Assembly (NCBI GenBank): GCA_020723185.1
Contig: DYJI01000008.1
Span: forward strand, 1-64,000
Origin: Sideroxydans lithotrophicus
Lineage (GTDB): Bacteria > Pseudomonadota > Gammaproteobacteria > Burkholderiales > Gallionellaceae
Direction: 5' to 3'
Length of the DNA: 64,000 bases
Position numbers and translations under genes: made by a program. Of the stretch, positions 8,243-15,785 are shown piece after piece. How positions within the stretch are numbered: position 1 is the first letter of the stretch; each line of letters opens with the position of its first letter. Below the pieces are notes generated by a model. That model saw nothing but the letters and a program-made list of their open reading frames with translations. It was not told the origin of the DNA and made no database searches.

Positions 8243-9088
8243 ATGGCAAGTGCAACTATCAAGATATTCTTGGCGCACGGAGATCCTAAAAGACTTCGTA
8301 CTGCTGAACTTTCAAACTGGACTGGAAAAGCAGTTGCGGGTCCAAGAAGTGAATTTGATAGCGTGCTTGCTAGAGAGGAATCGACTAATTCCGGCGTATA
8401 TTTTCTTACCGGAAATGATCCTGAATCAGGAAAGACGGCCGTATATATTGGCGAAGCAGAGTCTATTAAAGACCGAGTTAAATCACATCTGGAAAAAGAT
8501 TTTTGGAATCACATCGTCTTTTTTATCAGTAAAGATGAAAATCTCACGAAGGCGCACATTCGATATCTTGAAGGCCAGCTTATCGAGCATGCAAAAAAAG
8601 CTGGACGTGCAGTTTTGAAAAACAATCAAGGTAGCGGGTCAAAGTTGCCTGAATCAGACAGGGAGGATATGGAGGTCTTTTTGGAAAAGATGCTTCAACT
8701 TTTGCCTGCGCTTGGAATTGAGATTCTCGTTCCTGCAATCTCAGAAACTGCTGCACCTAAAAACACAGATCTTCTGTCGTGTGAAATTAAAGGGTTGAAG
8801 GCTACGGGGTATCTGACCCCTAACGGGATTGCTGTCCTGAAAGGATCGCAAGCAGTGCTTGCTGTAAGGGAGTCGTCTCACAAATATCCCTGGGCGATTT
8901 CGCTGCGTGACCGATTAACTGAGGATGGGAGCCTTGTGGTTGATGGCGACAAGTTGGTTTTTGCGAAAGATGTTGAGTTTTCTAGCCCAAGTGCAGCAGC
9001 AGCCGTTGTGCATGGCGGTCAGGCAAACGGTTTAACAGCTTGGAAAAACAAACATGGGAAGAGTCTAAAAGAATTAGAGGCTGAGTAA
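8243..9088 (+). CDS. GIY-YIG nuclease-fold protein with C-terminal DUF4357
   Basis: Residues 48-130 carry a GIY-YIG fold: GVY (51-53), YIG (68-70), Arg78, Glu110 and Asn127, the usual catalytic set. Residues 240-280 match DUF4357, with VHGGQANGLTAWKNKHGKSL. AAGGAA lies upstream of the ATG. The gene is visibly AT-richer than the genes on both sides, with codons such as ATA, AAA and TTT that are rare elsewhere here, which suggests transfer. GIY-YIG/DUF4357 proteins are scattered in genomes near defence genes and are of unknown function; a DNA-targeting role is inference. Confidence 0.85.
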   Translation: MASATIKIFLAHGDPKRLRTAELSNWTGKAVAGPRSEFDSVLAREESTNSGVYFLTGNDPESGKTAVYIGEAESIKDRVKSHLEKDFWNHIVFFISKDENLTKAHIRYLEGQLIEHAKKAGRAVLKNNQGSGSKLPESDREDMEVFLEKMLQLLPALGIEILVPAISETAAPKNTDLLSCEIKGLKATGYLTPNGIAVLKGSQAVLAVRESSHKYPWAISLRDRLTEDGSLVVDGDKLVFAKDVEFSSPSAAAAVVHGGQANGLTAWKNKHGKSLKELEAE

Positions 9089-9175: not shown

Positions 9176-9481
9176 ATGCCCAAGCTCTATGAATATTTCG
9201 GTTTGATCATCATGTTTTATGCTAACGAGCATGAGCCGGTTCATGTTCACGGCAAATTTCAGGATCGGGAATCCCGTGCCGAGATCATCGTGGTGAACGG
9301 CGAGATTGTGGAGATTCGCTATACGAATGTCGCCGGGCGTTTGCCTTTGGCGAATACCGAGATGCGCAACTTCGAGGAGTTGGTGACAGCTCGTGCCAGC
9401 GATATCGTAAGCAAGTGGATCGATTTTTTCGTGCTGCACAAACCTGTAAAATCGGAACGCATCACAAGGAGGCTGAAATGA
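9176..9481 (+). CDS. DUF4160 protein
   Basis: This 101-residue protein shows the DUF4160 pattern: MPKLYEYFGLIIMFYANEH, then EPVHVHGKFQDRESRAEI, then a conserved helix at the end. The family is small, common in mobile regions and of unknown activity. AAGGGG lies upstream of the ATG. Its stop overlaps the start of the DUF2442 gene in ATGA at 9478-9481, so the two are translated together. Such DUF4160/DUF2442 pairs have the size and layout of a toxin-antitoxin module, but I cannot show toxicity from sequence. Confidence 0.85.
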   Translation: MPKLYEYFGLIIMFYANEHEPVHVHGKFQDRESRAEIIVVNGEIVEIRYTNVAGRLPLANTEMRNFEELVTARASDIVSKWIDFFVLHKPVKSERITRRLK

Positions 9482-9845: not shown

Positions 9846-9882
9846 ATCATTGAGTAGCTCCCGAACCACCGGCCCCACGATC

Positions 9883-10836
9883 ATGATGAACACCAACCTG
9901 CAGGAATCCATTGAACGCCAGCGCAAGATACTCAAGGGCTGGCTCGCTTCTTCACTCTCGATACTGGCAGAGGATTGCGCGCAGGTGTGGCCGCAGCGGG
10001 CGGCGCTGGAAGCGAGGTTGATGGAAGGCATCGCCGAGCTGCCCTACTGCAAATATCTCTACCTGATGGATGCCAAGGCGCACCAGATCACTTCCAACGC
10101 ATCGCGCGTCGGCCTGATGGAGAAGCAGTTCGGCCGCGACCGTAGCCATCGCCCCTATGTTGCAGCAGCGCTTGCGGGGAGCGATTTCTCTCTTTCGGAT
10201 GCGTATATCAGCCAGAACGCGAAGCGGCCTTCGCTCACTGCGGTGCAGGCGGTGCACGGGGCGCAGGGCGAGGTGCTGGGTTTTCTGGGGGCGGACTTCG
10301 ACCTGCGCGAACTGCCCGCGACGCAGGCCATGTATGCGCAACCGGGGCAGTGGATGCAGCTCAAGGGCGACCCGGCGATACGGGGCGGGCTGTTCCGTCA
10401 GCAGCGCTTCGACAGTCCGATGGACCAGCAGATCGACACCGTGCTGCATATCGTCAACGAGCTGGTCACCATGCATGGCGTGTTCCACATCAAGCTGCAT
10501 TTCTCCAGCTCGCGCGCCACCATCATCGCGATGAACGATCCCTACCGTTTCCGGCTGCACGGCATCGACGAGCTCGGCAAGCCCGATCTGTGTCTGGCGT
10601 ATCCGCGCGTGGATTATCCCGCCGATGCGCTGATACCCGCGGATGCGGTGCACAGCATACTGGAGGTGTTCCGCGCGCTGCGCTTCATGGATGAGACGAT
10701 CTATCTGCGTTCGGGGATGCTCAACATCTTCAACGGCATGGTCGGCCTGACTTTCTCTTGCGATGGCTCCCACTACTTGCCATGGGAGGAGTTCCTGAAG
10801 CGGAAGGACGATTTTCTGACGGGGGTGGCGATGTAG
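9883..10836 (+). CDS. Soluble PDC/Cache-type sensor-domain protein
   Basis: The protein of 317 residues has a helical start, then a PDC-like sensor fold at about 55-165 (YCKYLYLMDAK, then FGRDRSHRPYVAAAL and a GFLGADFDLREL strand). PDC domains bind small ligands such as organic acids or amino acids, normally in the periplasm. Here there is no signal peptide and no membrane segment, so it should be cytoplasmic. The C-terminal 150 residues are unassigned. The start is uncertain: a TTG at 9850 is possible, but the ATG pair at 9883/9886 is more likely, although no clear ribosome site is seen. Confidence 0.6.
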   Translation: MMNTNLQESIERQRKILKGWLASSLSILAEDCAQVWPQRAALEARLMEGIAELPYCKYLYLMDAKAHQITSNASRVGLMEKQFGRDRSHRPYVAAALAGSDFSLSDAYISQNAKRPSLTAVQAVHGAQGEVLGFLGADFDLRELPATQAMYAQPGQWMQLKGDPAIRGGLFRQQRFDSPMDQQIDTVLHIVNELVTMHGVFHIKLHFSSSRATIIAMNDPYRFRLHGIDELGKPDLCLAYPRVDYPADALIPADAVHSILEVFRALRFMDETIYLRSGMLNIFNGMVGLTFSCDGSHYLPWEEFLKRKDDFLTGVAM

Positions 10837-10947: not shown

Positions 10948-11784
10948 TCAGTAGCGAGCATCCTTTGGCTTGTCGCCTTTCGGCCAATCCTTGTGCTTGC
11001 GGGCGTAGTCCGGTCGCGGCTGCTGGGTGAAGAACGCTGCGACGTCGTAGGCCTCCTGGTCGGTGAGGCTGCCGCCTTGCCCCAGCGGCATGTTGGCTTT
11101 GACGAATGCGGCGGCGGTGTTGAGGCGCGCCATGCCGGCGCCGATGTTGAAGGACTTGGCGCCCCACAGCGGCGGGAACATGTACTGACCTTCAGGACCT
11201 TTCATGCCCTGCCCATCGGCTCCGTGACAGACCGCGCACTTCTCGGCATAGATGGCCTTGCCCAAGACGGGGTTCGGCGCGCGTTCTGCCTTGATGCGCT
11301 TGAAGCCGCGTCCTTCCACATCCACGCCCGTCGGCACATCCTTCGACAGCCACCACATGTAGGCCAGTATCCCTTTCATCTCCTTGCTGTCTTCCGGCAA
11401 CGGTTTGCCGTTCATCGAGCGCTGGAAACAATCGTTGACGCGATCCTGCAGCGAATTGACCTCGGCGTTGCGCGTGCGGTATTCCGGGAACACGCCCCAG
11501 ATGCCCACCCAGGGGGCTGCGTTGGGGGTGCGGCCGCCATCCAGGTGGCAACTGCTGCAGTTCAGGTCGTTGCCCACGTATTTTTTGGCGTAGACCTGTG
11601 TCTGGGTCGTCAACTGATGTCCATAACGGATCGCTTCGCCCATGGGGCCGGACGGCATAGTTTCCTCGGCCGGCGGATTGAAGGGGGCTGTGGTCTTTAC
11701 GGCATCTTCTGCCAGTGCGCTGGAACCGTACATGGCCATGACGCCCGCCATCAGCCAGGCTGACAAGGAAAGGGTGGATCTCAT
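10948..11784 (-). CDS. Diheme c-type cytochrome, TsdA-like thiosulfate dehydrogenase
   Basis: The ATG at 11784 follows AGGAGG and opens a 278-residue protein with a signal peptide cut near residue 25 (SSALA). Two heme c sites are present: CSSCH at 76-80 and CAVCH at 183-187. The region between them, with VNDCFQRSMNGKPLP and ILAYMWWLSKDVPTG, is characteristic of TsdA, in which a cysteine at this place is an axial ligand of the first heme; Cys119 is the candidate. TsdA enzymes oxidise two thiosulfates to tetrathionate in the periplasm, or run the reverse. The gene diverges from the SOR-like gene, which supports a role in sulfur metabolism. Direction of catalysis cannot be read from sequence. 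Confidence 0.75.
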   Translation of the reverse strand: MRSTLSLSAWLMAGVMAMYGSSALAEDAVKTTAPFNPPAEETMPSGPMGEAIRYGHQLTTQTQVYAKKYVGNDLNCSSCHLDGGRTPNAAPWVGIWGVFPEYRTRNAEVNSLQDRVNDCFQRSMNGKPLPEDSKEMKGILAYMWWLSKDVPTGVDVEGRGFKRIKAERAPNPVLGKAIYAEKCAVCHGADGQGMKGPEGQYMFPPLWGAKSFNIGAGMARLNTAAAFVKANMPLGQGGSLTDQEAYDVAAFFTQQPRPDYARKHKDWPKGDKPKDARY

Positions 11785-12168
11785 ATTAACCTCCTGTGGT
11801 TGTTGGATGCTGCTGATAAGGTATCGCCGATGGCTTCGCCGGCATCGCTGCCGGGCAAGTTTGAATATTAAAATATCAGCAATTGCTAATATCATTCAAA
11901 ACAGACTGCGTGTCAATGTTGATTAAAATTGTCGGGAATAGCCTTCCCGGAGCAAAGGATTAACAGGCGGCAGTATCGCAATGACCCGCATATCGACCGC
12001 AAGGACGATGCGTTTTCGGAGCACGAATGAGGCTCGCATGATGCCGGGCACCGGATGCCACCGCTTGGAGTAGGGTTGAACTTGGACCGGCAAAGGTGGA
12101 AAGTGCAAAGCATGTGGTTGGTTTGAGCGGTCTCTTTTAACCTGCTTCATTTCAACTGGAGGTGCATC
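11785..12168. promoter_or_regulatory. AT-rich divergent regulatory region with two overlapping dyads
   Basis: The 384-base gap separates the TsdA-like and SOR-like genes. A strongly AT-rich block holds a near-perfect 20-base dyad at 11873-11892 (ATAT, C, AGCAATTGCT, A, ATAT; one mismatched pair) inside an outer pair TTTGAAT (11860-11866) and ATTCAAA (11894-11900). Read on the minus strand, TTGAAT, 18 bases, TATTTT is a possible sigma-70 promoter for the cytochrome, so the dyad would sit between its -35 and -10. A small hairpin, CGGGAA/TTCCCG, lies at 11933-11949. No further gene is seen in the rest of the gap. Confidence 0.5.
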
Positions 12169-12555
12169 ATGTTCTCTCCTGTCACTATCCCCTTCGGGGC
12201 GAAGATGCTTTTCAATACGGCCACGATCAAACCCGGCGTGGCGTTCGAGGATGTCGAGCTGGCGCTGGCCGAGATGTGCAATGTGGTGAAAGACACTTAC
12301 GGCGGCGACAAGGGCGGTTTCATCGCCGGGCAGGTCTATGCGTTCTCGGGTTTCCTTTCGGCAGAAGGCACGCTGGGTGATCCGGGCTCGGCGGAGAAAC
12401 ATATCGCGATCGTGACCTACTGGAAGTCTTTCGAGCAGCACGAGCGCTCGCACGCGGACAAGGTGTTCAAGGAAAAATTCGCGGCGCTGGCCAAGCTGTG
12501 CAGCGAGACCAGGGAGCTGGGTTACGACATGCTGTGGCAGGGGGTGCCGGAATAG
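12169..12555 (+). CDS. Single-domain sulfur oxygenase reductase-like protein
   Basis: The 128-residue protein has a ferredoxin-like (dimeric alpha/beta barrel) pattern and no signal peptide. GGAGG precedes the ATG. Residues that match the archaeal sulfur oxygenase reductase active site are all present: Cys37 (MCNVV) for the essential Cys31, His91 and His95 in YWKSFEQHERSH for the iron ligands His86 and His90 in FWKDWKDHEEMH, Cys111 (KLCSE) near the place of Cys101, and the terminal Glu128 in MLWQGVPE for Glu114 in MIWGPWE. The Cys-to-His distance is 54 here and 55 in SOR. SOR itself has two such domains and about 310 residues, so this is half-size. It faces a TsdA-like cytochrome gene. The alternative is a general ABM/NIPSNAP-fold protein. 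Confidence 0.55.
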   Translation: MFSPVTIPFGAKMLFNTATIKPGVAFEDVELALAEMCNVVKDTYGGDKGGFIAGQVYAFSGFLSAEGTLGDPGSAEKHIAIVTYWKSFEQHERSHADKVFKEKFAALAKLCSETRELGYDMLWQGVPE

Positions 12556-12743: not shown

Positions 12744-15700
12744 ATGCCGCAATCTAACTCTCTGGCAAAGATCAGTCGGCCAAGACTGACCCATATGGTG
12801 TCGCGGGGGCGGCTGTTCGGCTTGCTCGATCAGGCGAGCAAGCGCCCCGTCATTTGGATCACCGGGCCGGGGGGCGCGGGGAAGACTGCACTGGCGGCCA
12901 GTTGGCTGGATGCACGGAACAGATCGCATGTTTGGTATCAGGCGGATGCGGGCGATGCCGATCTGGCCAGTTTCTTCCATTACCTGAGCCTGGCGGCGCA
13001 GAAGCTGCCGTCCCGTTCGGAAGTGCCGCAGCCTGTCTTTACGCCCGAATTCATGCAGGGTGTCGCGGTGTTCACCCGGCGTTATTTCGAGGCGCTGTTC
13101 TGTCGTCTGCCGCCGGCGACGACTTTGTTGTTCGACAATTTCCAGGATGTTCCGGAAGGTTCCGGCTGGCACGAGATGATGGCGCATGCGCTGGAGACGA
13201 TCCCGGAAGGGAGCCATGTCATCGTGTTGAGCCGCGAACCGCCGCCTGCCGCGTTTGCGCGTATGCAGGCGAACAATCTCATTTCCGTCCTCGGCTGGGA
13301 AGACATCAGGTTCTCGCGGGAGGAAGCCCGCGAGCTCCTGTTCTCGCTGGGGGCGCATCCTGATGTGCAAAACATGCTGGATGATCTGTATGAAAAGACC
13401 GAGGGCTGGGCGGCGGGACTGGTGTTGCTGACTTCGCAGTTGCGCGCCGGCGGGACATCGCATCTGGATGCGTGTTCGTCGCAGTATGAGGTCTTCAATT
13501 ATTTTGCCAATGAGATATTCACCAGAACCGAGCCTGATGTGCAGGATGTGCTGCTGAAGACGGCTTTCCTGTCGCGGGTCGAGCCGGTGCTGGCGGTGCG
13601 GCTCAGCGGTGTGGCCGCTGCGCCGGAGATTCTGGAACGCCTGAATCTGATGCACTACTTCACGCAAAGATACGGCACGGCGTACCAGTATCACCCCTTG
13701 TTCAAGGCGTTCTTGCAGGCGCGCGCGGCGGCGACCTTCGCGCATTCGGAGGTTTTGCACATCCAGAGACACTCTGCCGGGCTGCTCGCTGAGGCGGGGC
13801 AGATCGAGGAGGCGGTGCGTCTGTATATCGTCGCAACGGACTGGGGAAACGCCTTGGGTTTGATATTGGGGCAGGCTGCCGAGCTGATCGCTCAGGGGCG
13901 CGGGAGCACGCTGGAAAGATGGCTGCAGGCGTTGCCGCTGCCGCAGATCGGCGCTTCGTCCTGGGGACAATACTGGCTTGGCGTCTGTCGCCTGCCGTTC
14001 GATCCGGCGGAAAGCAGGGTTCTCTTCGAACGGGCGTTCGAGCTGTTCCAGGCGGATGCGGACATCAGCGGTGTCTTTTTGAGCTGGTCCGGCATCGTGG
14101 ATACCTTCCTCTACCAATGGAGCGATTTCTCCCCGTTGGATCGCTGGATCACGGTCATCGAGCAGAAGCTGGCGGATCATCCCGTGTTCCCAACGCCCGA
14201 GATCGAAGCGCGGGTGGCGGCCGGCATGTTGAATGCGCTGGCCTGGCGGCAGCCGCATCGGCCCGATCTGCCTGTGTGGGCGGAGCGGGTGCGGCAGATC
14301 GTGCACCATCATGCGAACGTGCAGTTGCGCGTCATGCTGGGCAGCTATCTGATGATCTATTACCTGTGGATGGGAGATCTCGCGAAGGCCGGCTTGCTGA
14401 TCGATGAGCTGCGCCCGGTCCTTGACGGGAAAGAGCGGGACCCGCTGACACAGCAGAATTGGCATGTGATGGAAGCGATGCATGCCTGGGTCATTGCGGA
14501 TGAGAAGGCGTGTCTGGCGGCGGTCGACAAGGGTTTGCGCAACGCGGCCGAGAGTGGCGTGCATCTGCTGGATATGTATCTGCTGGGGCAGGGCGTCTAT
14601 GCGGGGCTGTCGCTGGACGACCCGGCCTCTGCGGTCGCCTGCCTGAAGAAGATGGTGTTGATCGACAGCCCGCGCATCATGGACAGGTCGTTCTACCAGT
14701 ATCAGGCTTCTTCCGTGGCCTGGATGCAGGGCAATCTGAAGAAGGCGATCGAGCATGGCAGGCTTTCCGTGCAGTTCGCGGATGCCACGGGCAGTCATCT
14801 TTCGCAGGCCTTGTGCCATATCGAATTGGCGGTGGCGCTGTTCGACGATGGGCAGCAGGAGGAAGCGCTGCGGCAATTGGCCATGGGCGAGGCGTATGGT
14901 CGCGGCATGAACCACATCGAGTTCATCGCCGCGCTGCACGCGGCCAGATTCGCCTTCGCGCGGGGCGAGGTGCGTCAGGGGCTGGAGAAGTTGCGGCAGG
15001 GGCTGGCGCTGGGGGCGCGGCAACACTATGTGAATTTCCCGCGCTGGGACGATGAGAACATGTCCATGCTGTGCGCGCAGGCCTTGCAGCATGGTATCGA
15101 GTTGCCCTACGTCAAGATGTTGATCAAGTTTCGCAATCTGTCACCGCCCGAATCCGTGACCGGCGTCGAATGGCCGGTCAGGGTGCGCGGGAACGAAAGG
15201 AAGGCAGTGGACGATGATTCGCTGGAGGCGCAGATCGCCGAGCGCACGCGGGCTTTGCAGGAGCAGAACCGCCGGCTCGAGAACATGGCGCTGACTGACG
15301 AGTTGACAGGGTTGTCAAACCGGCGCCATGCATTGCTGACCTTCGCGCGGGAATGGGAGGTGTCCGTGCAGCAAGACACGCCGTTGTCGTGTCTGATGAT
15401 CGATGCAGATGGCTTCAAGCAAGTGAACGACACGCATGGCCATGATGCGGGGGACGAAGTTCTGCGCAGCCTGTCCGATTGCCTCAGAAGGGCGGTGCGC
15501 GCGGAGGATGTCGTGTGCAGGTTGGGTGGTGACGAATTCCTGGTGATCTGTCCGGGTGTTCATCTGGAGGATGCGATGCATCTTGCAGAACAGATACGTG
15601 CCAGGGTGTCCGGGATGCAGGTGCCGGTCGGCAAAGGCGAGTGGCGCGGGAGCATCAGTGTCGGTGTGGCATCCCGCCTGCCTGATATGATCGATCTGGA

Positions 15701-15785
15701 ATCGCTGATCAAACTGGCGGATGCGGGCGTGTACACGGCAAAACGGAGAGGGCGGAACTGTGTCGCGGCAGGTTGCGGCGTCTAG
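12744..15785 (+). CDS. MalT-type STAND ATPase fused to GGDEF diguanylate cyclase
   Basis: The 1013-residue protein begins like MalT/LuxR-family STAND regulators (SLAKISRPRL), with Walker A GPGGAGKT at 41-48, a Walker B-like TTLLFDNFQD near 130, and a winged-helix-like part to about 340. Residues 350-830 are helical repeats of MalT TPR type. The LuxR HTH that normally ends such proteins is missing; after a charged helix (about 838-860) there is a GGDEF domain (862-1013) with intact GGDEF at 928-932 and an RxxD inhibitory site at 919-922. So a ligand- and ATP-gated STAND switch should drive c-di-GMP synthesis. An in-frame stop directly before the ATG fixes the start, though no ribosome site is clear. 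It is not in an operon with its upstream neighbour. Confidence 0.9.
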   Translation: MPQSNSLAKISRPRLTHMVSRGRLFGLLDQASKRPVIWITGPGGAGKTALAASWLDARNRSHVWYQADAGDADLASFFHYLSLAAQKLPSRSEVPQPVFTPEFMQGVAVFTRRYFEALFCRLPPATTLLFDNFQDVPEGSGWHEMMAHALETIPEGSHVIVLSREPPPAAFARMQANNLISVLGWEDIRFSREEARELLFSLGAHPDVQNMLDDLYEKTEGWAAGLVLLTSQLRAGGTSHLDACSSQYEVFNYFANEIFTRTEPDVQDVLLKTAFLSRVEPVLAVRLSGVAAAPEILERLNLMHYFTQRYGTAYQYHPLFKAFLQARAAATFAHSEVLHIQRHSAGLLAEAGQIEEAVRLYIVATDWGNALGLILGQAAELIAQGRGSTLERWLQALPLPQIGASSWGQYWLGVCRLPFDPAESRVLFERAFELFQADADISGVFLSWSGIVDTFLYQWSDFSPLDRWITVIEQKLADHPVFPTPEIEARVAAGMLNALAWRQPHRPDLPVWAERVRQIVHHHANVQLRVMLGSYLMIYYLWMGDLAKAGLLIDELRPVLDGKERDPLTQQNWHVMEAMHAWVIADEKACLAAVDKGLRNAAESGVHLLDMYLLGQGVYAGLSLDDPASAVACLKKMVLIDSPRIMDRSFYQYQASSVAWMQGNLKKAIEHGRLSVQFADATGSHLSQALCHIELAVALFDDGQQEEALRQLAMGEAYGRGMNHIEFIAALHAARFAFARGEVRQGLEKLRQGLALGARQHYVNFPRWDDENMSMLCAQALQHGIELPYVKMLIKFRNLSPPESVTGVEWPVRVRGNERKAVDDDSLEAQIAERTRALQEQNRRLENMALTDELTGLSNRRHALLTFAREWEVSVQQDTPLSCLMIDADGFKQVNDTHGHDAGDEVLRSLSDCLRRAVRAEDVVCRLGGDEFLVICPGVHLEDAMHLAEQIRARVSGMQVPVGKGEWRGSISVGVASRLPDMIDLESLIKLADAGVYTAKRRGRNCVAAGCGV

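Follow-up and report, generated by a model that had tools for sequence, protein, structure and literature searches.

An unnamed half-size protein family with the conserved cysteine and histidine pattern of sulfur oxygenase reductase

Introduction

Sulfur oxygenase reductases (SORs; PF07682; PDB 2CB2 and 6M35) combine two ferredoxin-like domains in one chain of about 300–310 residues and assemble into a 24-subunit hollow sphere with chimneys. Sections of two accounts name His86, His90 and Glu114 as the iron ligands, describe these ligands and Cys31 as essential and put the loss of activity upon C101A/C104A substitution at about tenfold (PMC7398979; PMC9529111). At Cys31, one SOR carries a persulfide and other SORs a free thiol, according to the portion of a third account that deals with it (PMC8551704). 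In the wider superfamily, barrels arise either via dimerization or via fusion of two domains, as set out in part of PMC4835899.

Full-length SOR is rare in the class studied here (10/369 genomes), and 70 of those 369 genomes carry a half-size family with SOR-like residues. Our starting point was one member of this family, encoded in a 64,000-nucleotide stretch of Sideroxydans lithotrophicus DNA (the window). A single-domain SOR-like protein was not found in the literature searched, which was mainly open-access papers, with preprints and most subscription papers outside its scope.

Results

A real gene belonging to a widespread, unnamed family

The 128-residue reading frame (Table 1) is a real gene and no chance ORF, because a relative is carried by 23 of 34 same-genus genomes (own genome included; 75–100% identity) and by 70 of the 369 class genomes (E ≤ 1e-3); 1 of 27 other genomes has one. 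The initial annotation had presented the product as a half-size SOR-like protein with C37, H91, H95, C111 and a terminal E128, and all five residues are where it placed them, as are YWKSFEQHERSH and MLWQGVPE. Its spacing argument is likewise correct: 54 residues from C37 to H91 compare with 55 from C31 to H86 in SOR, as numbered in the relevant part of PMC7398979. C37 and C111 are the only cysteines.

Table 1 Coordinates of the half-size gene and of its key codons in the window.
Feature	Position	Strand	Remarks
Half-size SOR-like gene	12169–12555	+	128 residues, stop codon included in the coordinates; ATG start
GGAGG ribosome-binding site	12158–12162	+	Six bases ahead of the ATG, read from the sequence
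Cys37 codon	12277–12279	+	Pairs with SOR Cys31; invariant (101/101)
HExxH codons (His91-Glu92-x-Ser94-His95)	12439–12453	+	His91 and His95 pair with SOR His86 and His90; H91, E92, S94 and H95 invariant (101/101)
Cys111 codon	12499–12501	+	Pairs with SOR Cys101; 99/101
Glu116 codon	12514–12516	+	Strand 4; favoured candidate for third iron ligand; invariant (101/101)
Tyr119 codon	12523–12525	+	Invariant (101/101); in clade-B alignments to SOR pairs with the Tyr three after the iron Glu
Glu128 codon	12550–12552	+	Iron ligand proposed by the initial annotation; clade A 61/79, clade B 0/22; pairs with the SOR Glu in the A+B alignment only

No Pfam or NCBIfam model matches the protein above its cut-off. 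The sole Pfam match is to PF13826 (residues 34–115, E 0.02, 15.6 bits against a cut-off of 25); neither the SOR model PF07682 (cut-off 25 bits) nor the ABM model PF03992 (cut-off 23.1 bits) matches up to E 10, and phmmer against PDB sequences returned nothing up to the same value.

A scan of genome contigs confirmed at least 403 relatives, the best 80 of which come mostly from Gallionellaceae, Betaproteobacteria/Burkholderiales and Rhodocyclaceae, with 19 from Nitrospirota. We took 139 distinct sequences (117 from clade A, 22 from clade B) and aligned 101 (79 A, 22 B; alignment A3), dropping one fragment and others more than 90% alike; alignment A1 holds 44 of 53 extracted proteins. Two clades emerge from A3: clade A is at least 52% identical to the window protein, and clade B, at about 150 residues, is 31–36% identical. 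Both occur together in 5 of the 369 genomes (G103, G186, G297, G369 and G394), and carriers within the class are spread over 43 families. Plasmids searched with both clades and phages searched with clade A gave no match. The family is nameless, strongly conserved and widespread: N16, C37, K41, W85, H91, E92, S94, H95, E116, Y119, W123 and G125 are among the residues invariant in all 101 sequences.

The N-terminal half of SOR is the nearest profile

By profile comparison, the N-terminal half of SOR is the nearest in sequence of four profiles compared, for both clades. With hhalign the combined A+B family aligned to it at E 6.9e-6, to ABM at 1e-4, to PF13826 at 2.7e-4 and to the C-terminal half of SOR at 0.02. 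Clade A alone gives SOR a small lead (1.1e-5 versus 3.8e-5 for ABM) and clade B alone a larger one (1.5e-5 versus 8.6e-4). The ABM control used 20 of 28 loci, chosen by hand, and the PF13826 control the two of five loci that lie above cut-off. No column shuffle of the SOR N-terminal half matched the real score (0/100); the ABM profile likewise scored better than 100/100 of its own shuffles. Against ten full-length SORs (L054–L063), hhalign gave E 1.2e-5 and a probability of 81%, setting C37, H91, H95 and C111 on the SOR Cys, His, His and Cys.

Among PDB sequences the family profiles rank SOR chains first at marginal values: 9 of 25 hits for A1 (best 0.0043), 10 of 28 for A3 (best 0.0016) and, with the clade-B profile, 7 of 29 (best 0.0046). 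The A3 hits also include triosephosphate isomerases at 0.2, and the clade-B hits include them at 0.017. Searching the 369 genomes with the Pfam SOR model (E ≤ 1e-3) recovered the ten SORs and one clade-B member (G315), which the family search had found independently. All 22 clade-B proteins match this model at E ≤ 1 (best 1.1e-4) as their top family, and those whose scores are listed all stay under the curated cut-off; one example scores 15.9 bits for SOR (cut-off 25) and 13.3 bits for ABM (cut-off 23.1). Clade-A members scanned singly match PF13826 more often (49/79 at E ≤ 1, best 9.8e-4) than ABM (15/79) or SOR (9/79).

We also considered SOR as a plain duplication of the half-size family, a reading that finds no support: the C-terminal half of SOR lies nearer to ABM (4.5e-6) than to the half-size proteins (0.02).

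Within the SOR set, four members (L060–L063) form a divergent two-domain group, 32–34% identical to L054, with GPEEP in place of GPWEP and scores of about 204–218 bits against 446–481 for the other SORs. A fifth (L059:1363–2400, + strand) begins, by eye, with a twin-arginine-like N terminus (RRKFLK and a hydrophobic stretch), which would suggest an SOR outside the cytoplasm.

A single ferredoxin-like domain

The AlphaFold2 (AF2) model of the window protein (pLDDT 92.1) has one ferredoxin-like domain, as the initial annotation had it. Foldseek returned 135 hits at E ≤ 1e-3 (best 3.3e-6); the best 50 have TMq values of 0.51–0.68, and the top ones are ABM/Monooxy_af470-like superfamily proteins. 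SOR, with which the initial annotation had suggested a Foldseek superposition, is missing from those best 50. As modelled, the protein has the ferredoxin-like fold of the dimeric alpha–beta barrel superfamily and, by analogy, would dimerize.

The SOR-like label stands in part. In its favour are the nearest profile, the N-terminal half of SOR, and the coincidence of the SOR Cys, His and His with invariant C37, H91 and H95; against it are the more frequent clade-A matches to PF13826 and the absence of SOR from the best 50 of 135 structural hits. Membership of the superfamily is firm, with kinship to SOR suggested by the residue set and a modest profile lead.

Glu116 is a likelier candidate iron ligand than Glu128

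Relatives keep most of the proposed site: C37, H91 and H95 throughout, and C111 in 99/101. The exception is E128, which the initial annotation had equated with SOR Glu114. It is absent from 18 of 79 clade-A sequences, 16 of which are from Nitrospirota, and from all 22 of clade B, where its counterpart is a tyrosine. E116 was missing from the annotated residue set and is invariant.

Alignments point both ways. The NEEIAY stretch of clade B pairs with SOR GPxEPxY, bringing E116 onto Glu114 and Y119 onto the tyrosine three residues later (HMMER against 6M35; hhalign against the ten SORs), whereas hhalign of the A+B family against the SOR N-terminal half pairs E128, not E116, with the iron-ligand glutamate. 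In the AF2 model E116 lies inside strand 111–120, and E128 is in the tail behind that strand. An AF2 model of SOR for comparison was poor (pLDDT 47.1) and gives a weak hint that strand 4 (126–131 of L054) comes after the iron glutamate (E123). We consider E116 the likelier candidate for the third ligand on account of its conservation and its location within the modelled strand; E128 was set aside as the favoured ligand on conservation, with the A+B alignment still in its support.

Nearly all carriers within the class hold sulfur-oxidation genes

A genome was scored as having dsrA (TIGR02064) when its best E lay below 1e-50 (118/369 genomes, of which 112 exceed the curated cut-off), and as having soxB (TIGR04486) when it lay below 1e-100 (150/369, 148 over cut-off). 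Carriers of the half-size gene are enriched for dsrA (61/70 versus 57/299 non-carriers; odds ratio 29, p 6e-27), soxB (63/70 versus 87/299; p 2e-21) and full SOR (5/70 versus 5/299; p 0.02), the significance being overstated in all three cases because each genome counts as independent. One or other of dsrA and soxB is found in 68 of the 70 carriers, and 42 of the 43 carrier families include such a genome; the two carriers with neither (G298, 55% complete; G396, 75% complete) have partial matches. Full SOR is over cut-off in ten genomes, half of which also hold the half-size gene. The window's own genome has soxB and dsrA, and a search of it for SOR found none.

Four carriers with dsrA (G202, G315, G347 and G410) have genomes of 1.0–1.1 Mb; our guess is that some of them are thiotrophic symbionts. 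Among Nitrospirota carriers (13 of 19 loci tested), dsrA or soxB is over cut-off in 0/13; sub-threshold matches to dsrA (10/13) and soxB (5/13) are of a kind that occurs in control genomes too.

Since the half-size protein has an SOR-type Cys/His set, and since nearly all carriers in the class hold sulfur-oxidation genes, it is possibly an enzyme of sulfur handling that has been overlooked.

Genomic surroundings vary

The minus strand at 10948–11895 encodes a diheme c-type cytochrome that combines a SoxA/TsdA domain (PF21342, 45.6 bits, cut-off 27) with a second cytochrome c domain; it falls far under the NCBIfam SoxA cut-off. The initial annotation took this thiosulfate cytochrome for meaningful context, a view that finds no support: among the loci searched (flanks of about 1.5 to 10 kb), the cytochrome adjoins the half-size gene only in its own genome and in L004. 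A Cache-like protein (9850–10836, +; PF02743, 28.4 bits, cut-off 45) is a commoner neighbour in near relatives, at varying distance and on either strand.

Operon logic was tried for each clade and rejected. Around clade A, no family recurs at a constant position in over 7 of 80 loci (ORFs overlapping the gene left aside); around clade B, the largest neighbour families reach 4 of 16 loci, four of the 20 having been dropped as their proteins duplicated earlier loci. A Pfam scan of 173 of 185 flanking ORFs (12 omitted for size; ORFs from a simple script, some spurious) found any one family in at most 3/135 clade-A ORFs (DsrC among several at three) and 4/38 clade-B ORFs (trypsin/PDZ). No conserved operon was found around the loci of either clade.

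Other features of these regions were recorded in passing. DnaJ-like and small heat-shock-like ORFs, named by eye, lie upstream in 4 of 16 clade-B loci (L148, L161 and two others). Within the window, 12744–15785 (+) encodes a 1,013-residue protein that couples a C-terminal GGDEF domain (E 1.4e-40) to a MalT-like ATPase region (NF003420, E 5.6e-45, under its cut-off), and a DUF4357 protein (8243–9088, +) is closely followed by a small DUF4160 protein (9176–9481, +), both over their Pfam cut-offs.

Discussion

At close to an even chance, we propose that the half-size protein is an SOR-like protein of one domain, located in the cytoplasm and containing mononuclear non-heme iron, and that it acts as a sulfane-sulfur (persulfide) dioxygenase beside Dsr/Sox. 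The eight-stranded barrel, which SOR builds from two fused domains, would here arise from the pairing of two subunits. Each subunit would hold an iron through His91, His95 and a carboxylate (more probably Glu116 than Glu128), giving up to two iron sites per dimer; close to the iron, Cys37 would carry sulfane sulfur in persulfide form, to be oxidized there by O2. We propose dimerization, iron sites and the Cys37 persulfide because of the analogy with SOR and with superfamily barrels, and the cytoplasmic location, substrate and reaction are likewise predicted. The direction of the initial annotation seems right, with Glu128 doubtful as a ligand, the cytochrome unsupported as context, and iron and chemistry predicted from sequence.

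The rival that competes most directly takes the protein for an ABM/Monooxy_af470-like superfamily member that serves a different function, as an organic oxygenase, an isomerase or a lyase, its SOR likeness reducing to a common fold and a local WxxFxxHExxH stretch. Such proteins are the top structural hits in the best 50 of 135, the ABM profile beats all 100 shuffles, PF13826 picks up 49 of 79 clade-A proteins, and the tested Nitrospirota carriers have neither dsrA nor soxB over cut-off. We judge this account less likely than the dioxygenase, in view of the SOR N-terminal half being the best of four profiles in both clades, the fall of the SOR Cys, His and His on invariant residues and the strong dsrA/soxB association within the class. 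Less probable again is a metal- or persulfide-binding sensor or a sulfur carrier, which would suit a small stand-alone protein, in single copy and outside any operon, with an invariant cysteine and a possible metal site, present also in the tested Nitrospirota, none of which has dsrA or soxB over cut-off. The full SOR set of a cysteine, two histidines and a glutamate exceeds what binding needs; in other respects the data fit an enzyme equally well.

That the gene is a truncated, decaying SOR might be suspected from its span, which covers the half of SOR with the active site. Conservation refutes this in practice: a whole family has this length, with residues invariant in 101/101 sequences across 43 families of the class and Nitrospirota, and five of ten SOR genomes carry the half-size gene beside SOR.

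The dioxygenase proposal has a wider form, which we advance tentatively and with some doubt: widespread single-domain non-heme iron sulfane-sulfur dioxygenases may perform an O2-dependent cytoplasmic step left out of Dsr/Sox models, also in genomes of about 1 Mb, as a single-domain counterpart to SOR, the caged enzyme with two domains. Should the protein be an enzyme, models of sulfur oxidation in many bacteria would lack a step, 128 residues would make it the smallest protein capable of SOR-type chemistry, and it would offer a one-domain comparison for the origin of the two-domain cage enzyme.

Comparison with known systems

Of the families with which it can be compared, PF13826 (Monooxygenase af470-like) is of similar size and matches weakly. 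The two PF13826 proteins aligned have YWQSF or YWKSF and then no HExxH, which is a feature of the half-size family. With ABM (PF03992) and one-domain dimeric alpha–beta barrels such as IsdG and methylmuconolactone methylisomerase, the protein has its fold and a distant profile kinship in common. The 20 ABM control sequences have no invariant column and hence no fixed Cys/His/His/Glu set, unlike the half-size family.

With SOR the half-size protein shares, by alignment, equivalents of Cys31, His86 and His90, an HExxH on the helix behind strand 3, an equivalent of Cys101 and, as a candidate for the Glu114 position, a glutamate in or near strand 4. It has one domain where SOR has two, without the C-terminal half, and of the Cys101/Cys104 pair it has C111 for Cys101 and none for Cys104. 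The chimney helix-loop, residues 125–152 of SOR in the part of PMC7398979 that describes it, is absent and falls outside the aligned part. By cut-off, length and the Cys101/Cys104 pair, the protein is no member of PF07682. SOR is known as a hollow sphere, and the half-size protein is known here from its sequence and a monomer model; by analogy, it may work like SOR.
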